Positions 7,198 to 29,566 of a stretch of DNA of 31,392 bases are shown here, in pieces. Every line of letters starts with the position of its first letter. Position 1 is the stretch's first letter. The DNA is taken from positions 1-31,392 of IMG/VR virus record IMGVR_UViG_3300025108_006280; one strand, written 5' to 3'. The notes below the pieces were generated by a model, which was not told the origin of the DNA, ran no database searches, and saw nothing but the letters and a program-made list of their open reading frames with translations. The translations under genes and the position numbers were made by a program. The DNA is from a virus.

Positions 7198-7362
7198 ATG
7201 AGCAACGCAAACACCGCAGTAAAGCCCGCAGCAAAGCCCGAGCCTGATCCTGTCTGCGACGCCTGCGGGGGGCCGGTCGTCGCTGATGACGCGCTCTGCT
7301 TCGCTTGCGCAGACGATGAGGACGCCAAGTTCGCGGGCGGCTGGGCTCTCGGTGATGACTAA
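7198..7362 (+). CDS. Small zinc-ribbon protein, 54 residues
   Basis: This is the first gene of the rightward operon. An Ala/Lys/Pro-rich N-terminus precedes CDACGG and CFACAD, two CxxC pairs 13 residues apart that should bind one zinc. The tail is acidic. It is probably an early protein acting on nucleic acid or a host protein. Its start is set by the near-leaderless promoter, and its end overlaps the next gene by eight bases. No family is recognised. Confidence 0.7.
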   Translation: MSNANTAVKPAAKPEPDPVCDACGGPVVADDALCFACADDEDAKFAGGWALGDD

Positions 7363-8245: not shown

Positions 8246-8451
8246 TGCACGCCCTCACCCTGACCCTTGCCGTTGCCCTCATCCTCTCCGTTGCCGTCGC
8301 CTACGACATGCACCGCCGCCTCCGCGCGACCCTTGCGGACGCCAGCCGCCTACACACCCTCGTGGACTATTGGCACGCGCGATGCGGGCGCGAGGCTGGG
8401 CGCTATGAGGCCGCGTACATCGACGCGGTCGACGGAGGGCGGGAGCGATGA
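8245..8451 (+). CDS. Small membrane-anchored protein, 68 residues
   Basis: An N-terminal hydrophobic segment (about residues 3-20, ALTLTLAVALILSVAVAY) is followed by a charged helical domain, so this is a single-pass inner-membrane protein or a signal-anchor type. GTG 8245 shares its G with the preceding TAG. It lies in the early operon just before the annealing protein and far from the lysis genes, so spanin or holin is unlikely. Superinfection exclusion or host takeover are possible roles, unproven. Confidence 0.6.
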   Translation: MHALTLTLAVALILSVAVAYDMHRRLRATLADASRLHTLVDYWHARCGREAGRYEAAYIDAVDGGRER

Positions 8452-9011
8452 GCGATAACCCCCATGCCACGCTCGCTGATGCACTTGCCGCCGCCCAGGG
8501 CGAGATCCGTAACCCCGCCCTGGACGGCGTAAACCCACATTTTCGATCGAGGTTCGCCACGCTCGCCAGCTGCCTCAAGGCTGTACGCCCGGTGTTTGCC
8601 AAGCATGGCCTTGCCATCGTGCAGGCGCCCTCGTCACATGACGGCGGGGTCGCCCTCACGACGACCATCATGCACGGCGCGGGCACCATTGAAAGCACGG
8701 TTGCTTGCCGGTGCGGCTCCAAGGTCCAAGAAATGGGCAGCGCGATCACGTACCTCCGCCGATATGCACTGTGTTCGATGGTGGGGATCGTAGGCGACGA
8801 CGACGACGACGGGAATCAGGCCGTGGCAGGGTTCAGCTCCGTACTCAGCGAGGCCCGCTCCATGCTCGCGGACCGTTTTGGGCCGGGCTGCGCAGCCAGT
8901 GCGGACGAGGCCAATCGGTGGATTCAGGAGCAGTCCGAGGGGCGCTACAGCCTGGACACCCTCGATAGCGAGCCTGGGCAGATCCTGCGGCTGCTCAAGG
9001 AGTCGCCGTGA
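8448..9011 (+). CDS. erf: ERF-family single-strand annealing protein
   Basis: This 187-residue recombinase belongs to the ERF (essential recombination function) family, which anneals complementary single strands and promotes recombination or circularisation. The characteristic core is visible: NPHFRSRFATLAS (29-41), the GSAITYLRRYAL stretch (97-108) and a following Asp-rich loop (116-121). The C-terminal region is variable, as usual. ATG 8448 overlaps the previous TGA. A putative structure-specific nuclease lies two genes downstream, giving a small recombination module. This enzyme could also drive recombination between the 107-bp repeats on the other side of the control region. Confidence 0.9.
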   Translation: MSDNPHATLADALAAAQGEIRNPALDGVNPHFRSRFATLASCLKAVRPVFAKHGLAIVQAPSSHDGGVALTTTIMHGAGTIESTVACRCGSKVQEMGSAITYLRRYALCSMVGIVGDDDDDGNQAVAGFSSVLSEARSMLADRFGPGCAASADEANRWIQEQSEGRYSLDTLDSEPGQILRLLKESP

Positions 9012-11933: not shown

Positions 11934-12641
11934 CTACTCGGCCGGGAAGTAGGTAAGGGTCCCTGACTCGATGGTGATCACACCAGCGTAGGAGGTCCAA
12001 TTGCCGACGATCAGGCCAATCTTCGCCACCGATCCAACGACGTCGTCCTCAGCGGACCGCACGGTTGTCCACGAGGCGCCGTCCGATGACTCCTCATAGA
12101 GGATATCCGAGCCCGATCGGCTGGTGCGGTAGTGCCAGTGACTTGTGGGATCGACGGACGTGCCCCCGTCAGTCTCGCCCACCTGTTCCAGGCCGATGAC
12201 GGCTCGCGCCCGCACCTTGGTCGAGTTGTCGTTCGCGGTCGTCAGCAAGAACGCGGAATCGTTCCCACGCGGCCAGCACGCACCGGGGCCGGCGAAAAGG
12301 TGCGTAGTGGACGCCGAGGTCGTCTCGTACTTCATTTTAAGCTCAACGGTCCAATCCCCGACCGCGTCCACGGTCAGCGCCAACGCCTCATCATCAAAGA
12401 GCGTGCCGTTTTCATAGGCCGGCCGGAAGTGACTGCCCTGGACGGCGGTGTTCAGGACCGACTCGGATCCGTCCCCCACGATGCTCGTGAAGTTGCCGCC
12501 GGGATCGTGGAGGTCGAACCCATCCCACATACCGCCGTCCACGATCCCGTCCGAAACGGTGAACGTGCCGCTGCCGGGGGACAATGAGAGCACTGTCGCG
12601 GCGGTGGCGCCGCCGCCCGCCCTGATGATCTTGACCGCCAT
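11934..12641 (-). CDS. Probable virion surface or tail protein, 235 residues
   Basis: The sequence is beta-rich and almost Cys-free, of the kind seen in phage tail-tip or lectin-like (concanavalin/LamG) domains, with strands around WTVELKMKYETTSASTTHLFAG. Near the C-terminus lies SSDGASWTTV, an Asp-box-like motif that also occurs in the 1078-residue tail protein with matching DNA. ATG 12641 overlaps the previous TGA; a TTG one codon upstream is a weaker alternative. A role in host recognition is inferred. Confidence 0.65.
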   Translation of the reverse strand: MAVKIIRAGGGATAATVLSLSPGSGTFTVSDGIVDGGMWDGFDLHDPGGNFTSIVGDGSESVLNTAVQGSHFRPAYENGTLFDDEALALTVDAVGDWTVELKMKYETTSASTTHLFAGPGACWPRGNDSAFLLTTANDNSTKVRARAVIGLEQVGETDGGTSVDPTSHWHYRTSRSGSDILYEESSDGASWTTVRSAEDDVVGSVAKIGLIVGNWTSYAGVITIESGTLTYFPAE

Positions 12642-12937
12642 CAAACAACCATCACGTTGACGTTGGGCGTGCCACTGTCGCTCTTGACGTCGATGAGTAC
12701 GTCGGTGCCGGGCCGCTTGGCGAAGCTCCAGACGTCTTTGGCAGCGAGCGCGGGCGCCTCGATGAAGTCGCCGCCGCCGACCTGAAACTTGACGGTCATA
12801 ACGAGGGCGTCGTCATCAAGCCACAGCTCGACCGCCGCGCCGCAATTCTCGATGTATATCTCATTGCCGCTACCCAGGTAGCTAGAGCTGACGGCGACAG
12901 CCTTGGTCAGTTCCCGGTCGATCGTTGTGAGTGCCAT
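12641..12937 (-). CDS. Small tail-associated protein, 98 residues
   Basis: This beta-rich protein has no Cys cluster or membrane segment and follows the tail hub gene. A good AGGAG lies eight bases before its ATG. Size and composition suit a small virion decoration or tail-tip component. No family is recognised. Confidence 0.65.
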   Translation of the reverse strand: MALTTIDRELTKAVAVSSSYLGSGNEIYIENCGAAVELWLDDDALVMTVKFQVGGGDFIEAPALAAKDVWSFAKRPGTDVLIDVKSDSGTPNVNVMVV

Positions 12938-20357: not shown

Positions 20358-20713
20358 AAACCCGCCTGCTCCGCGACCTCCTCCTCACGCGGGAACAACT
20401 GCCGCGCCATCGGGATAAGCAGCTCGAAGCCCGTCTCGGACACCACATCAACGCTCGCCCCGTGCTCGCGGAGGTATGCATACACCTTGCCGCCGTAGGT
20501 GAGCACATCGTGCCCACAGCGCGCGTAGGACGCCTGGGTCAAGGCACCTACACCGGAGCACAAACCGATAGCAGCAGCGTAGACCCGCCGAAGCATCAGC
20601 CCGTCCGATTGGTGCTTCGAGAGGGCCGCGACCAACTCCTCACGTTCCGTGAAGCCCGGCAGCGACACCGGCCAAACCCTCTCCACCACTTCGATCTTCT
20701 CAGGCATTGCCAT
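20327..20713 (-). CDS. Tail assembly chaperone, zero-frame product
   Basis: This 128-residue protein sits between the tail tube and tape measure genes, the standard chaperone place (lambda gpG-like). It should bind the tape measure protein during tail assembly and be absent from the virion. It is helical with an acidic Glu-rich C-terminus (FPREEEVAEQAGFTDAAEG). An AGGAGGAGG precedes ATG 20713. Ten codons before the stop is the slippery heptamer that should produce a longer fused form. Confidence 0.85.
   Translation of the reverse strand: MAMPEKIEVVERVWPVSLPGFTEREELVAALSKHQSDGLMLRRVYAAAIGLCSGVGALTQASYARCGHDVLTYGGKVYAYLREHGASVDVVSETGFELLIPMARQLFPREEEVAEQAGFTDAAEGTST
20333..20363 (-). promoter_or_regulatory. 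Programmed -1 frameshift signal
   Basis: The heptamer GGGTTTT at 20363-20357 is read as G GGT TTT in the zero frame, an X XXY YYZ slippery site. Eleven bases downstream is a GC-rich hairpin, CGAGG-GCA-CCTCG (20345-20333). A one-base back-slip enters exactly the frame encoding the T-like domain. Confidence 0.8.
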
Positions 20714-20740
20714 CTGTTTCGCCTCCTCCTGGCGCTGGTG

Positions 20741-21253
20741 CTAGGTGCGGGTGACCGCCTTGGTGCCGCCGAACGGAACACAGATCCCGCTGACGCTGAA
20801 CTTCGCGGGATTGCCCTCCGTGAAGGAGACGTCCTGCGGGATGAAGGCATTGACCACGATGGTCTGCCCAGCCTCGCCGCCGGTGACGCCCGAGGTGTCG
20901 GCGGTGTAGGTCACCTTCACGGCCCAGACGTCGGAGCCGGTCGTGATGACCGACGTGCCGCCCGACCATGCGTTTTCCTTGAGCATCACGTCCATCAGCG
21001 CTTGAGTCTCGGTGCCGTCGCTGATCTCGGTCGCGTGGCAGGAGAACGACAGCGAGTAGGTCTTCTGGTCGGTCTGCCGGAATGCGTAGAAGTCTCCACG
21101 ATCCTTGAAGCCCTCGACGTCGTAATCCCCCTCAGCAAGGCCCGCGATGTTGAAGTCGCCGTCCTCGTAGATCATGGTTGCGGCAAGGGCGCCGCCGTCC
21201 TCAACAAGGATCGTTCCGTTGGGGATGAGAATAGGGGCGGAATTGAGGGCCAT
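20741..21253 (-). CDS. Major tail tube protein
   Basis: This 170-residue beta-rich protein should polymerise into the tail tube. Its position before the chaperones, its size and its N-terminus (ALNSAPILIPNGTILVEDGG) all fit tail tube proteins. The C-terminal segment (FTEGNPAKFSVSGICVPFGG) is typical of the closing strands of that fold. A strong AGGAGT lies upstream of ATG 21253. Confidence 0.82.
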   Translation of the reverse strand: MALNSAPILIPNGTILVEDGGALAATMIYEDGDFNIAGLAEGDYDVEGFKDRGDFYAFRQTDQKTYSLSFSCHATEISDGTETQALMDVMLKENAWSGGTSVITTGSDVWAVKVTYTADTSGVTGGEAGQTIVVNAFIPQDVSFTEGNPAKFSVSGICVPFGGTKAVTRT

Positions 21254-21263
21254 GCTGGGACTC

Positions 21264-21704
21264 CTAGGTCAACGGCAAACGGTGGTAGGTCTGAAAGCGG
21301 GACTCGTGGACGAACCACTCCCCCGACGAGGTCATGTCGCGGCTACTGCTCTCCCACAGCACCTGTACTCCATCTGTGGCAATCGCGGCGGCGATTAGGT
21401 CCCGCTCATGGTCGAGCGCTGCGTCCTCGGAAGCCAGACCGTCACGGGGCGTGTAGCGCGCGAAGAAGCGCACAGACACGCCCGACAGGGTCAGCGCGCC
21501 CAGTGCGGCGCGCTGCCTATCCTCGCCCGCCTCGGAGTCGAAGCCGATGGAGAAGCTTAGATGCGCCTTGCTCGCGGGCACCGCATCAGGCACATCGCCC
21601 GGTCCGTGTAGGTGGTAGGGCACGGGTGAGGCGTTCCAGTCGCCGCCGATGGTGAGGATCTGCGTGCTCAAGTCCTGCCGCAGCTCCGCGAAAGTCGTGG
21701 TCAT
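21264..21704 (-). CDS. Tail terminator-like protein
   Basis: This 146-residue protein begins at an ATG overlapping the adaptor TGA; the longer open frame upstream mirrors the neighbouring gene. It has alternating helices and strands of the type seen in lambda gpU/SPP1 gp17 terminators, including an N-terminal helix (FAELRQDLSTQIL) and central strands VSVRFFARYTPRD. Position between adaptor and tail tube genes supports capping the tube at the head interface. Confidence 0.7.
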   Translation of the reverse strand: MTTTFAELRQDLSTQILTIGGDWNASPVPYHLHGPGDVPDAVPASKAHLSFSIGFDSEAGEDRQRAALGALTLSGVSVRFFARYTPRDGLASEDAALDHERDLIAAAIATDGVQVLWESSSRDMTSSGEWFVHESRFQTYHRLPLT

Positions 21705-26492: not shown

Positions 26493-26498
26493 GGGCGC

Positions 26499-26528
26499 AA
26501 GTTAACGCGCGATGCTTGCGAGGCGCAA
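26499..26528 (-). promoter_or_regulatory. Candidate leaderless promoter for portal/late genes
   Basis: The -10 is TAACTT (26499-26504) and the -35 is TTGCGC (26523-26528), with an 18-base spacer. Six bases separate the -10 from GTG 26492. The -35 matches consensus in only three of six positions, so support is moderate. Confidence 0.4.
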
Positions 26529-26530
26529 GC
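26514..26530. terminator. Hairpin between accessory island and late operon
   Basis: Perfect 7-bp stem GCTTGCG/CGCAAGC around AGG. There is no T tract. It could terminate island transcripts or act in the portal promoter, whose -35 lies inside it. Confidence 0.5.
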
Positions 26531-26540
26531 GCTAGTCACG

Positions 26541-26777
26541 CTAGACGTCGAGGCAGCGCATCCGCACGAACTCCCCCGCCGTCATGGGGCGCGGCATCTG
26601 CCCGCAGCACATGACGGCGGATGGCACCGCCGTGCCCTTGCAGCACTTGCAGACCCCCCACCCGCGCGAAGCCTCGACCACCTCGGCCCACTCGTCATCG
26701 CTGAACCGCACCGCACGCTGGCGGCGCTTCTCGTTCGCAGGCAGTGGCGGGCGGCCCATCCTCTTGGCTGCGGGCAT
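26541..26777 (-). CDS. Small DNA-binding-like protein with AT-hook and Cys cluster, 78 residues
   Basis: The N-terminus has an AT-hook-like KRMGRPPLP, followed by RAVRFSDDEWAEVVEASR, reminiscent of a ribbon-helix-helix strand and first helix, and then CKCCKG...CCGQ, a likely zinc site. This points to a small regulator acting on DNA. ATG 26777 overlaps the previous TGA (TGATG). It is the last gene of the island. GTG codons one and two positions upstream are alternative starts. Confidence 0.65.
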   Translation of the reverse strand: MPAAKRMGRPPLPANEKRRQRAVRFSDDEWAEVVEASRGWGVCKCCKGTAVPSAVMCCGQMPRPMTAGEFVRMRCLDV

Positions 26778-27016
26778 CACCACGTCCTCACGGCTGCGGT
26801 CTTGACGTCGGTCTTGAGGTACCCGTGCGGCCCGAACGAGACGATCGCGACCTCGGCGGCGGCGTTGTAGTCGCGGGTTAGCAGTCCCCGACTAAGCACG
26901 GTGGACGCGAGCGAGGCGTCGGCGTAGTCCGTGAACAGGCCACGGATCTGCCAGGGGGCGTCGGCGGCGCACCGGGACACGAGTAGGTCAACGTAATCAG
27001 CGGTCAGGGTCATCAT
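26777..27016 (-). CDS. Hypothetical island protein, 79 residues
   Basis: The gene begins with two ATG codons after AGGAGG in leader copy 1. Only the first eight bases match the ATGATGACGAACACG start shared by its neighbours. The product is mixed helix/strand with no Cys cluster (TADYVDLLVSRCAADAPWQI, later AAAEVAIVSFGPHGYLK). Function unknown. Confidence 0.65.
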   Translation of the reverse strand: MMTLTADYVDLLVSRCAADAPWQIRGLFTDYADASLASTVLSRGLLTRDYNAAAEVAIVSFGPHGYLKTDVKTAAVRTW

Positions 27017-27076
27017 CTCATCCTCCTAGGGTTACACCTCGGCGGCTGGGCCCCCGAAGGGGCGCGCCGGGGCTAC
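27017..27076 (-). repeat. Island leader repeat, copy 1
   Basis: This is one of three near-identical leaders. It contains a GCCCC-UUCG-GGGGC hairpin (27063-27050 on the minus strand), then GAGGTGTAACCCTAG and AGGAGG before the start codons. It directly follows the stop of the upstream island gene. Confidence 0.85.
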
Positions 27077-27364
27077 CTAGGCGAAAATCACCAACTCCAC
27101 ACCGTCGAAGCTCCAGCAGCATCTCCCTTCGGAGTCCTCGCCCAAAAACCAAGGCTCATGGTCCCCGGTGATGTGGGTCACGTCAGCGACGCCGCTGGGC
27201 GCGTCGTCGGCGTAACCGCTCGATCTGATCGCGGACTTGCTGACGCGAACGCTCCGCGCCCCACCAGCGACGATGGCGGAGATGTAAGCCTCTTCGGCGC
27301 GGCGGAGCGCGCCCTTGAAGGTGATGGAAACCAGGGCGGCGGTGTTGTTCGTGTTCGTCATCAT
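27077..27364 (-). CDS. Hypothetical island protein, MMTNTNN family A, 95 residues
   Basis: The N-terminus MMTNTNNTAAL and C-terminus ELVIFA are shared with the 74-residue protein at 28394-28618, but the middles differ. The middle includes a helix (RRAEEAYISAIVAGGARSVR) and an acidic/aromatic part (DHEPWFLGEDSEGRCCWSF). It is translated after leader copy 2. Function unknown. The shared ends suggest the coding region was exchanged as a cassette. Confidence 0.7.
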   Translation of the reverse strand: MMTNTNNTAALVSITFKGALRRAEEAYISAIVAGGARSVRVSKSAIRSSGYADDAPSGVADVTHITGDHEPWFLGEDSEGRCCWSFDGVELVIFA

Positions 27365-27424
27365 CTCATCTCCTCACTAGGGTTACACCTCGGCGGCTGG
27401 GCGCCCCGAAGGGCGCGCAAGCGC
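27365..27424 (-). repeat. Island leader repeat, copy 2
   Basis: Same leader type as copies 1 and 3: hairpin GCGCCC-UUCG-GGGCGC (27416-27401), then GAGGTGTAACCCTAGTGAGGAG and the double ATG. The remaining 55 bases up to the next gene hold an inverted repeat, CTGATC-GAGCG-GATCAG (27468-27484), that covers that gene's stop codon and may be a terminator. Confidence 0.85.
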
Positions 27425-27480
27425 TAGGGTGTGCAGCCCGTGAGCCGGGCCGCTTCTTCTTCGACCGCTGATCGAGCGGA

Positions 27481-27996
27481 TCAGGCCGGGCAGGGGCCGA
27501 CGCTGGACAGTAGGTCGAACTCGTCGGCGCTCAGCCCGGCCGGGGCTTCGGTCACGATCTCGGGCAGGGGCGTCGCGTGCTTCCCGGTGAGGCACACGTA
27601 CTCGGTGATCGGGTAAGGCGATCCCGTGTCGACGTCGACCGTCGCCGACGTGCCGCACTTCCACAAGCGCACCGCGACGCCGTCGCTCTCGCGCAGCATG
27701 TAGACGTACTGCGTCGACTTGCGCCCGTACGGCTGCACGACCCGGTCGCCGTGCTTCTCGGGCAGGGCGAAGCCGTGGCTCTCGAAGAGCGCGACGGCCT
27801 TCACGAGCGGCCGACCCTCGATCAGCGGCAGGCTCGCGTCGTTCACGAGCAGGCTCGGCCCGTCAAGCGTGAAGGGCTGGCGCGTGCGGTGTTCGAACAG
27901 GGCGATCGTCGTCCTCATGTGCGTGCGCCGGGGCTCGCGCCCCGTGAGGTGAATGAAGGCGAGCACGTCGCGCTGCCGAACGGTGAGCTTCGTCAT
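27481..27996 (-). CDS. Hypothetical island protein, 171 residues
   Basis: The N-terminus (KLTVRQRDVLAFIHLTGREP) resembles a winged-helix opening of the LexA or MarR type. The following part is a mixed beta region with HGDRVVQPYGRKSTQYVYM and a C-terminal TGKHATPLPEIVTEAPAGLS. It has an AGGA site and lies between two Cys-rich or cassette genes. It lacks the MMTNTNN start. It could be a regulator of the island, but no family is recognised. Confidence 0.65.
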   Translation of the reverse strand: MTKLTVRQRDVLAFIHLTGREPRRTHMRTTIALFEHRTRQPFTLDGPSLLVNDASLPLIEGRPLVKAVALFESHGFALPEKHGDRVVQPYGRKSTQYVYMLRESDGVAVRLWKCGTSATVDVDTGSPYPITEYVCLTGKHATPLPEIVTEAPAGLSADEFDLLSSVGPCPA

Positions 27997-28008
27997 GCGG
28001 GATCCTGC

Positions 28009-28329
28009 TCACCAACGCCGCATGGAGGCGACTTGACTCTCAAGGTCGGGGTTTTGCAGGCACGTGAGGCACGCTCGGAACCCCTCCTCGTAAACCTCGT
28101 CGGAGCACTTCGCGCAGCACGGACCCTGACACACGAGGCAGTCGGGCCAGAACCACGTTTCTGCGTCCCGCACATCGCTCTTGAACTCGGGCTCCATCCA
28201 TGCGCCGCACTCGCCGCACTTTTGCGTAGGCAGGGGCACGAGAGCCCCGTCGCGCTTGCGTCGTCGGATGCGCCATCCGGTTCCTGACAGTTCAATCTTG
28301 CGTGTCATGTTGTTCGTGTTCGTCATCAT
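28009..28329 (-). CDS. Multi-Cys zinc-finger protein of the MMTNTNN set, 106 residues
   Basis: The shared MMTNTNN start leads into a basic stretch (WRIRRRKRDGALVPLP) and then four Cys groups, CGEC, CLVC, CCAKC and CLTC, enough for two zinc ions in a treble-clef or RING-like arrangement. It could bind nucleic acid or a host protein. ATG 28329 follows GAGGAG in leader copy 3. A GTG 12 bases upstream lies within that ribosome site and is unlikely. Confidence 0.75.
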   Translation of the reverse strand: MMTNTNNMTRKIELSGTGWRIRRRKRDGALVPLPTQKCGECGAWMEPEFKSDVRDAETWFWPDCLVCQGPCCAKCSDEVYEEGFRACLTCLQNPDLESQVASMRRW

Positions 28330-28393
28330 CTCTCTCCTCACTAGGGTTGCACCTCGGCGGCTGGGCGCCCCGAAGGGCGCGCGCCGTGGCTAC
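28330..28393 (-). repeat. Island leader repeat, copy 3
   Basis: It contains the same GCGCCC-UUCG-GGGCGC hairpin (28380-28365) and GAGGTGCAACCCTAGTGAGGAG before the start. Like copy 1, it directly follows a gene ending in ELVIF and a TAG within CTAGGTAGCC, so the homology runs from one gene end to the next gene start. Confidence 0.85.
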
Positions 28394-28618
28394 CTAGATG
28401 AAGATCACCAACTCGCCGCAGGCGTCGATGATCAGGTGGCCGCGCTGGCAGATCCGGTCCGCAGTGTCCCGCTCAGTCAGGGCCTCGGCCAGGGTGGGGA
28501 CGGTGGCCCAGGCGGTCTGACCAAGGCGGCGGATGGTGTAGGGGGCGGTGGGGTGCTCGACGTCGGCTTCGGGGGTGAGGGAGGAGAGGGCGGCGGTGTT
28601 GTTCGTGTTCGTCATCAT
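28394..28618 (-). CDS. Hypothetical island protein, MMTNTNN family B, 74 residues
   Basis: Its ends match the protein at 27077-27364 (MMTNTNNTAAL and ELVIF), while the middle (PYTIRRLGQTAWATVPTLAE) is unrelated. The first 32 bases of the two genes are identical. It is read from a leaderless promoter with no Shine-Dalgarno sequence. Function unknown. The C-terminal CQRGHLIIDACGELVIF looks like a small beta hairpin. Confidence 0.7.
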   Translation of the reverse strand: MMTNTNNTAALSSLTPEADVEHPTAPYTIRRLGQTAWATVPTLAEALTERDTADRICQRGHLIIDACGELVIFI

Positions 28619-28624
28619 GGGTAT

Positions 28625-28682
28625 ACATTAACCGCGCGTTTACCAATGCACAAGAACTATTTTGCGATATGCCGAAACTATC
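28625..28682 (-). promoter_or_regulatory. Leaderless island promoter 1 with upstream element
   Basis: The -10 is TAATGT (28625-28630) and the -35 is TTGTGC (28648-28653), with a 17-base spacer. Six bases separate the -10 from ATG 28618. The element GATAGTTTCGGCATATC lies at 28666-28682. Geometry is identical to the promoter before the ligase gene. Confidence 0.7.
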
Positions 28683-29486
28683 CTACTCGTAGTCCCTGGC
28701 CGCGATGAACACGGGAAAGCGGGGGACCCCGGCGGGCGTCAGTTCTTGATAGCGCACGGTGATGACGCCGCCGATCGGAAGCGGGTCCTCGCGGTGCTCG
28801 TCGGTGAGGCCGGTGCCGACCTTGAACTGCACTCCCGAGCCCATCAGGGTCACGCGGTACGCGCCCAGGCGCCCCCGGTGCTTGCCCGTGCCCTGCTGGT
28901 AGCCGGTGATCCGCGCCTCGGAGTCGTGGAAGTCCTTGAGCTTGAGGAGCGTGGAGCTGCGCTTCGGTTCGTACAGGGAGCCCTTACGTCGGAGCATGAT
29001 CCCCTCGGCGCCCTTGCGGCGTAGTGCGCGGTGGGCGCGGGCGAGATCGTCGTGCGAGCCGCAGGGACGCTGGCGTACGGCGCGGGCGTGCGGGCCCTGG
29101 ACGTGCTTGTTGATGTACTCCACCCGCTCCTCGAAAGTGCCCTGGACCTGGGGGGCGTCGAAGACCATGTAGGTGATTTTGCGCCAGTGGGCGTCAAGGG
29201 GCACCTCGCGACGCACGGCGCCGACCGTGTCCCGAAACATGCCCCGGCCGGCGAAGAGTTCGCCGTCGAGCACGGTGTTTGGCAGGCTGTCCCTGAACCA
29301 CTGGGGGGCGTTGAAGGGCTTGCCCGTGCGGCTCCAGAAGTTGCTGCCGTCCCAGATGGCGCGCACCCCGTCCAGCTTCTCACTGATCCAGAAGTCGCCA
29401 GGGTCCTCGCGGCCGGTCCACTTCTTCGCCAGGAGCACCGACGCCAGCGGGGACGAGGTGCCTGGGGTGTTCGTGTTCGTCATCAT
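28683..29486 (-). CDS. ATP-dependent DNA ligase
   Basis: This 267-residue ligase should seal nicks through a Lys-AMP intermediate. The catalytic Lys is Lys37 in ISEKLDGVRA (motif I). Further motifs are DGE (74-76, III), YMVFDAP (106-112, IIIa), EGIMLRRKG (161-169, IV) and KLKDF (182-186, V). An OB-fold follows (YRVTLMGSGVQFKVGTG). This two-domain form is a minimal size. It shares the MMTNT start and the twin leaderless promoter, so it belongs to the island rather than the replication operon. Roles in replication or repair after entry are plausible. Confidence 0.92.
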   Translation of the reverse strand: MMTNTNTPGTSSPLASVLLAKKWTGREDPGDFWISEKLDGVRAIWDGSNFWSRTGKPFNAPQWFRDSLPNTVLDGELFAGRGMFRDTVGAVRREVPLDAHWRKITYMVFDAPQVQGTFEERVEYINKHVQGPHARAVRQRPCGSHDDLARAHRALRRKGAEGIMLRRKGSLYEPKRSSTLLKLKDFHDSEARITGYQQGTGKHRGRLGAYRVTLMGSGVQFKVGTGLTDEHREDPLPIGGVITVRYQELTPAGVPRFPVFIAARDYE

Positions 29487-29492
29487 GTGGGG

Positions 29493-29550
29493 ATCGTAGC
29501 GCCGGGTTTACCGTATGTCTACTAATGTTCCGAGATATGCCGAAACTATC
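29493..29550 (-). promoter_or_regulatory. Leaderless island promoter 2 (ligase) with upstream element
   Basis: The -10 is TACGAT (29493-29498) and the -35 is TAGACA (29516-29521), with a 17-base spacer. Six bases lie before ATG 29486. The same 17-base element GATAGTTTCGGCATATC is at 29534-29550, again 48 bases upstream of the ATG. A matching GGTAAAC lies inside both spacers. Confidence 0.75.
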
Positions 29551-29566
29551 TGCGCTCGAGGAAGCG

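Follow-up and report, generated by a model that had tools for sequence, protein, structure and literature searches.

An accessory gene island of an uncultivated tailed phage with apparent exchange of small genes at repeated, expression-like signals

The window analysed here is the whole of virus record IMGVR_UViG_3300025108_006280, a stretch of 31,392 bases that encodes TerL, an ATP-dependent ligase, a tape measure, a tail fibre, an endolysin, a methyltransferase, a primase/helicase and an Erf protein. The source is an uncultivated tailed phage, and the gene complement of this 31-kb record is that of a small one. The matches to its TerL were weak and to other groups only, with no T4-type phage among the matches listed. 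The gene order starts with TerL (31018-29567, minus strand), and the next conserved gene (26492-25182, minus strand) is a putative portal gene, named from its position and without a family match. These two genes are separated by only 7-94 nt in 11 of 11 relatives with a TerL 42-51% identical to that of the window, versus 3,074 nt in the window itself. Because the gap is nearly empty in every one of these relatives, all seven genes lying in it (26493..29566, minus strand) are accessory and form a gene island that was inserted downstream of TerL, ahead of the next conserved gene. Neither the island nor the module described below matched anything in annotated phages or in Rfam, and plasmids gave only short, weak matches.

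All seven genes of the island are on the minus strand. The ATP-dependent DNA ligase (28683..29486) matches PHROG 114 at E=1.9e-60 and the Pfam domains DNA_ligase_A_M and OB_2. It is followed by gene A (28394..28618, 74 aa, no known family), the cysteine-rich gene B (28009..28329, 106 aa), gene C (27481..27996, 171 aa), gene D (27077..27364, 95 aa), gene E (26777..27016, 79 aa) and gene F (26541..26774, 77 aa). Gene E is present in every version of the module seen in other contigs (L018, L021, L016 and L159), while the first codons alone of F recur, in L016 and L159. PADLOC returned a weak match for E alone (E-value 0.0055), and an AlphaFold model of its product, at a pLDDT of 44, was too poor for use. 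Its low third-position bias raised the idea that E is conserved as a non-coding element; a within-species dN/dS of about 0.17-0.26 argues against this.

The ligase, A, B and D open with the same CA-rich start block, ATGATGACGAACACGAACA, which makes up about the first 6-11 codons of each gene; C does not have it. The 19-nt block has exactly four copies in the window, all on the minus strand and all at gene starts (27364, 28329, 28618 and 29486), with none expected in 100 shuffles and no further copy at up to three mismatches. The ligase copy (29468..29486) is a 19-nt match, as is that of B (28311-28329), whereas the copies of A (28587..28618) and D (27333-27364) are identical over exactly 32 nt. 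The first-pass annotation had already seen four genes with a common opening; the count holds, with the ligase as a fourth member from outside the segment it had covered. It had also described two genes with the same ends and unrelated centres, and A and D bear this out. Besides the first 32 nt, they share the tail GAGTTGGTGATYTTC-NNC-TAG, which encodes ELVIFI* in one gene and ELVIFA* in the other, and shuffling tests at both the protein and the nucleotide level found their cores unrelated. More broadly, no alignment among the cores of A, D, B, the ligase and the two replacement cores H and I from relatives (see below) clearly beats shuffled sequences.

A second repeated element, a leader with a stem-loop, precedes B, D and E, with a Shine-Dalgarno sequence (GAGGAG or GAGGA) ahead of the ATG. 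Its motif CCGCCGAGGTGYAACCCTAG occurs in three copies versus 0.01 expected. Leader L1 (28330..28396, minus strand) runs from the A stop codon to the B start and has a UUCG stem-loop followed by GAGGAG; L2 (27365..27418, minus strand) lies between C and D; and L3 (27017..27079, minus strand), of the same type, runs from the D stop codon to the start of E. The earlier description of near-identical leaders reaching from gene end to gene start is right in part: the constant segment of L1 and L3 does start at the stop codon of the gene before and reach the following Shine-Dalgarno sequence, but the left arm of L2 is unlike that of the other two and L3 is just 82% identical to the reference copy. 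The UUCG hairpin is likewise present: the stem has CTAGG/CCTAG at its base and UUCG at its apex, though for the window copies the fold has only a small advantage over shuffled sequences (z about -1.2 to -1.6). No coding-strand intrinsic terminator was predicted at the leaders. The leader of the close relative L018 was considered as a chimera of L1 and L3, an idea then set aside, since L159 and L021 also have the L1-type C in GTGCAAC; a longer stem is common to L018 and L159, and L3 may simply be derived.

The ligase and A are without a stem-loop leader and have instead an element that was absent from the first-pass annotation, a sigma-70-like promoter with the common sequence AGTTTCGGCATATC. 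The ligase copy (29487..29547, minus strand) has a -35 TAGACA, a spacer of 17 nt, a -10 TACGAT and 6 nt to the ATG, and gives its ATG the top promoter score among the 694 ATGs in the window. The copy of gene A (28619..28679, minus strand) is a weaker match, with TTGTGC, 17 nt, TAATGT and the same 6 nt to the ATG. Promoters and stem-loops are thus separate elements, placed ahead of different genes. The -10 element ends 6 nt before the ATG in the ligase, in A and in several relatives, a spacing that predicts leaderless mRNAs for the ligase and A.

The content between these repeats varies among relatives. From the few assembled contigs available for the comparison of arrangements, L003 and L017 repeat the window arrangement almost identically. 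In L018, which is 94-98% identical, the ligase is followed by about 20 nt, a leader and E, and A-D are absent. L021, mostly 92-96% identical where it can be aligned, has a leader, a start block with a 6-nt deletion, a 119-aa core H unrelated to the window cores, and E. Two other contigs, L016 and L159, come from distant phages; most of their matching proteins are 24-40% identical in amino acids to those of the window. L159 has a start block, a new core I, a leader, E and the first codons of F. In L016, an in-frame fusion joins a start block to E downstream of a leaderless-type promoter; a second start block opens a 26-aa ORF. Start blocks attached to unrelated cores are identical over 19-54 nt, the upper figure (I versus the 26-aa ORF of L016) including three nt added for register; that of H, with its 6-nt deletion, is identical over 13. 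It is worth pointing out that some joints lie off the constant blocks: H meets E directly in L021, and the joint after the ligase in L018 is not clean. Because E is frameshifted in L159 (6001-6240), the copy of the module there may be degenerating or may work only in part.

Gene E is 89-94% identical in L016 and L159, with a dS of 0.15 to the former and 0.10 to the latter, inside the range of 0.02-0.20 for genes compared within the species. Gene 11934-12644, the one other gene with a good match, has a dS of 0.79 to L016 and 1.73 to L159. These figures point to a recent transfer of the E module between distant phages. Exchange has apparently also occurred between the copies of one repeat. The ligase promoter of L018 resembles the promoter of window gene A in its upstream part and the window ligase promoter in its downstream part, with the switch inside the shared block; none of 5000 permutations was as extreme, although a few of the informative sites lie in poorly aligned flanks. 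The simplest reading of this chimera would be an exchange or conversion between copies, in either direction. As a side observation, the gene at 11934-12644 (minus strand) encodes a 236-aa protein without a family match that is 74-80% identical in L016 and L159, well beyond the 24-40% of their other genes, and is a second candidate for transfer among these phages.

The contigs compared thus show changes of gene content at the signals and movement of modules between phages. Shared expression signals are where genes have been gained, lost and swapped, as seen from the variation among the relatives, the recurrence of the E module in distant phages and the chimeric promoter. The proposal, made from the window alone, that recombination at constant blocks could swap coding cores is supported in part: exchange of gene content at these blocks is well supported by H, I and the 26-aa ORF and E fusion of L016, as well as by the missing A-D and the chimeric promoter of L018. 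Other genes with the same 5' block or leader, which it suggested looking for, do exist. The explanation that we regard as probable as a whole is an accessory island with joints at expression signals, contents exchanged through short repeats, and repeats kept mainly for expression. The exchange would take place by homologous or annealing recombination through repeats of 19-60 nt. A candidate recombinase in the window phage is the Erf-like single-strand annealing protein (8448..9011, plus strand; PHROG 2324, E=1.4e-36; PF04404, E=9.4e-22); as the records of L016 and L159 yielded no PF04404 match, it is regarded as a candidate only, not as a necessity.

Several other explanations have to be weighed against this one. 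Repeated units that are adjacent and on one strand, with A and D alike at both ends, might go back to a single ancestral gene unit that was duplicated in tandem, the cores then diverging gradually while selection kept only the expression signals; two of the four start-block genes of an unrelated phage (L019, below) do look paralogous. This origin is improbable here and already largely refuted: the cores are no closer than shuffles, yet their 19-32 nt edges are identical including synonymous sites, near-identical relatives carry other genes or none in the same slot, and distant phages have the module too, with an E dS of 0.10-0.15. Both of the outcomes that would have spoken against core swapping, blocks without any other core and simple duplication with gradual divergence, are contradicted. 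A less remote alternative is ordinary mosaicism, in which illegitimate recombination at gene edges does the joining and the blocks are surviving expression signals that do not guide the exchange. We think this unlikely but would take it seriously, given the little homology at the H-E joint of L021 and on the ligase side in L018, and given that boundary sequences are missing at most phage mosaic joints (PMC3029335). It does not readily account for the same blocks lying at the joints of different cores, nor for the switch within a shared block in the L018 promoter, which needs an exchange between copies.

A true site-specific system, with an undetected integron-like or other recombinase using the stem-loop leader as its site, would fit the structured leaders at gene boundaries, their CTAGG/CCTAG stem base and the variable content between them. 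The first-pass annotation had called the exchange integron-like and integrase-free. The second half of that phrase agrees with the domain searches: five records, which may be incomplete, had no match to PF00589 (tyrosine integrase, IntI) or PF00239 (serine resolvase), with working positive controls. The first half holds by analogy only, as no attC core (RYYYAAC or GTTRRRY) was present on either strand of the five leaders tested. Moreover, the start block is shared also where the leader is absent. Site-specific recombination is not supported, and we consider a system of this kind very improbable.

Returning to exchange through short repeats, the blocks most likely persist for expression, as judged from their resemblance to known signals. 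The proposed role of the start block is that of a downstream enhancer of translation, in leaderless and Shine-Dalgarno-led mRNAs alike. CA repeats directly after the start codon enhance both kinds of translation (Martin-Farmer and Janssen 1999, as described in PMC9031893), and a CA-rich block behind both kinds of signal fits this role. The likeness extends to the position after the start codon and to the two classes of genes; here the CA-rich stretch is a natural and fixed sequence, ACGAACACGAACA, and the enhancer is putative. The stem-loop, in turn, may insulate or process the transcript between cistrons and present the Shine-Dalgarno sequence. Recombination at such blocks would bring in a new core pre-fitted with a promoter or leader, a start codon and N-terminal codons. 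One could go further and see a portable format for in-frame gene capture. The promoter with its start block on one side and the stop-to-Shine-Dalgarno stem-loop on the other would then be standard connectors, through which different phages acquire, lose and trade small coding cores in frame by recombination over short homologies; functionally, this would be a counterpart of integron cassettes that needs no integrase. We hold this joint reading only tentatively, and think it rather doubtful.

In integron gene cassettes, variable ORFs alternate with constant, structured DNA, and a tyrosine-recombinase integrase acts at attC sites. The island shares the variable ORFs and the structured constant segments that separate them; it differs in that neither integrase nor attC cores were found in the records and leaders searched and in that constant sequence lies inside the ORF ends. 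The closest known system is that of the promoter early stem-loops (PeSLs; Arbiol 2010, Comeau 2014) in T4-type phages, which are described as repeated promoter and stem-loop units beside variable small genes, with gene shuffling proposed or shown (PMC4503421). Similar motifs are found in the halovirus HGTV-1 (PMC3950731). Both PeSLs and the present elements are repeated intergenic units beside variable small genes whose content differs among relatives. In contrast to PeSLs, the phage here is not T4-type, promoter and stem-loop are separate, no terminator is predicted at the leaders, and the constant sequence extends into the coding ends of genes.

Another parallel is offered by the SAS/ESAS elements of cluster K mycobacteriophages, in which unrelated small genes of these phages carry a 13-bp sequence, GGGATAGGAGCCC, 3-7 bp upstream of the start codon. 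It probably serves translation initiation and has an inverted repeat just upstream in half of the cases (PMC3203893). These are also start-linked repeats; unlike the main block here, which is downstream and inside the gene, SAS is upstream of the start codon, and the sequence upstream of the island genes differs from GGGATAGGAGCCC. Conserved boundary sequences, the short shared stretches at mosaic module joints that permit homologous exchange (PMC3029335), differ from the blocks here, which are repeated several times per genome and resemble expression signals. What is new in the present case is that the constant blocks reach into coding sequence, so that swapped cores gain a constant N-terminus.

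It has long been asked how phages can gain new small genes and keep expression intact. In this island the joints can be seen; they are repeated and linked to expression signals, and relatives show genes that are there, missing or replaced, along with a recent transfer that involves distant phages. The idea that expression signals double as recombination connectors can thereby be tested directly, and the blocks can serve as search tags for cargo genes in metagenomes.

The start block may also spread as a 15-19 nt unit in its own right. In the unrelated phage L019 (3300011013_000088, 20667-21579, minus strand), four small genes in one stretch open with ATGACGAACACGAAC, 15 nt of which are exact in all four. 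Three of them have clear leaderless-type promoters (TTGAC.., 16-17 nt, TAnnnT, 6 nt, ATG); two resemble paralogues and the remaining pair is unrelated. One start-block gene each occurs in L015 and L196, with strong promoters; a promoter score of 9 or more is reached by 1.7% of all ATGs in the scanned loci. Because the search was by exact match, this reach outside the module family is merely suggestive. A scan with ATGACGAACACGAACA gave 50 viral contigs, many with internal or isolated starts as chance predicts. L164 and L166, in which search patterns fell within ordinary genes, were dropped as chance matches. The 30-nt block gave partial matches only against phage GenBank sequences. In GTDB genomes the 19-mer had at least 119 matches (loci L022-L140), nearly all inside or antisense to other genes and often in recurring sequence contexts that are not gene starts, so that it was rejected as a host marker.

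Two smaller observations concern short ORFs. A 54-aa ORF at window position 7198 (plus strand), beginning MSNANTAV, lies behind a leaderless-type promoter (TTGCAC, 18 nt, TAGAGT, 7 nt, ATG) and has an N/T-rich start that is start-block-like at the protein level. The start block itself also opens very short ORFs, of 8 codons in L015 (955-973, minus strand) and 26 codons in L016 (10620-10715). Their stop codon touches or overlaps the Shine-Dalgarno sequence of the downstream gene, and they are possibly leaderless leader peptides that feed ribosomes to it.
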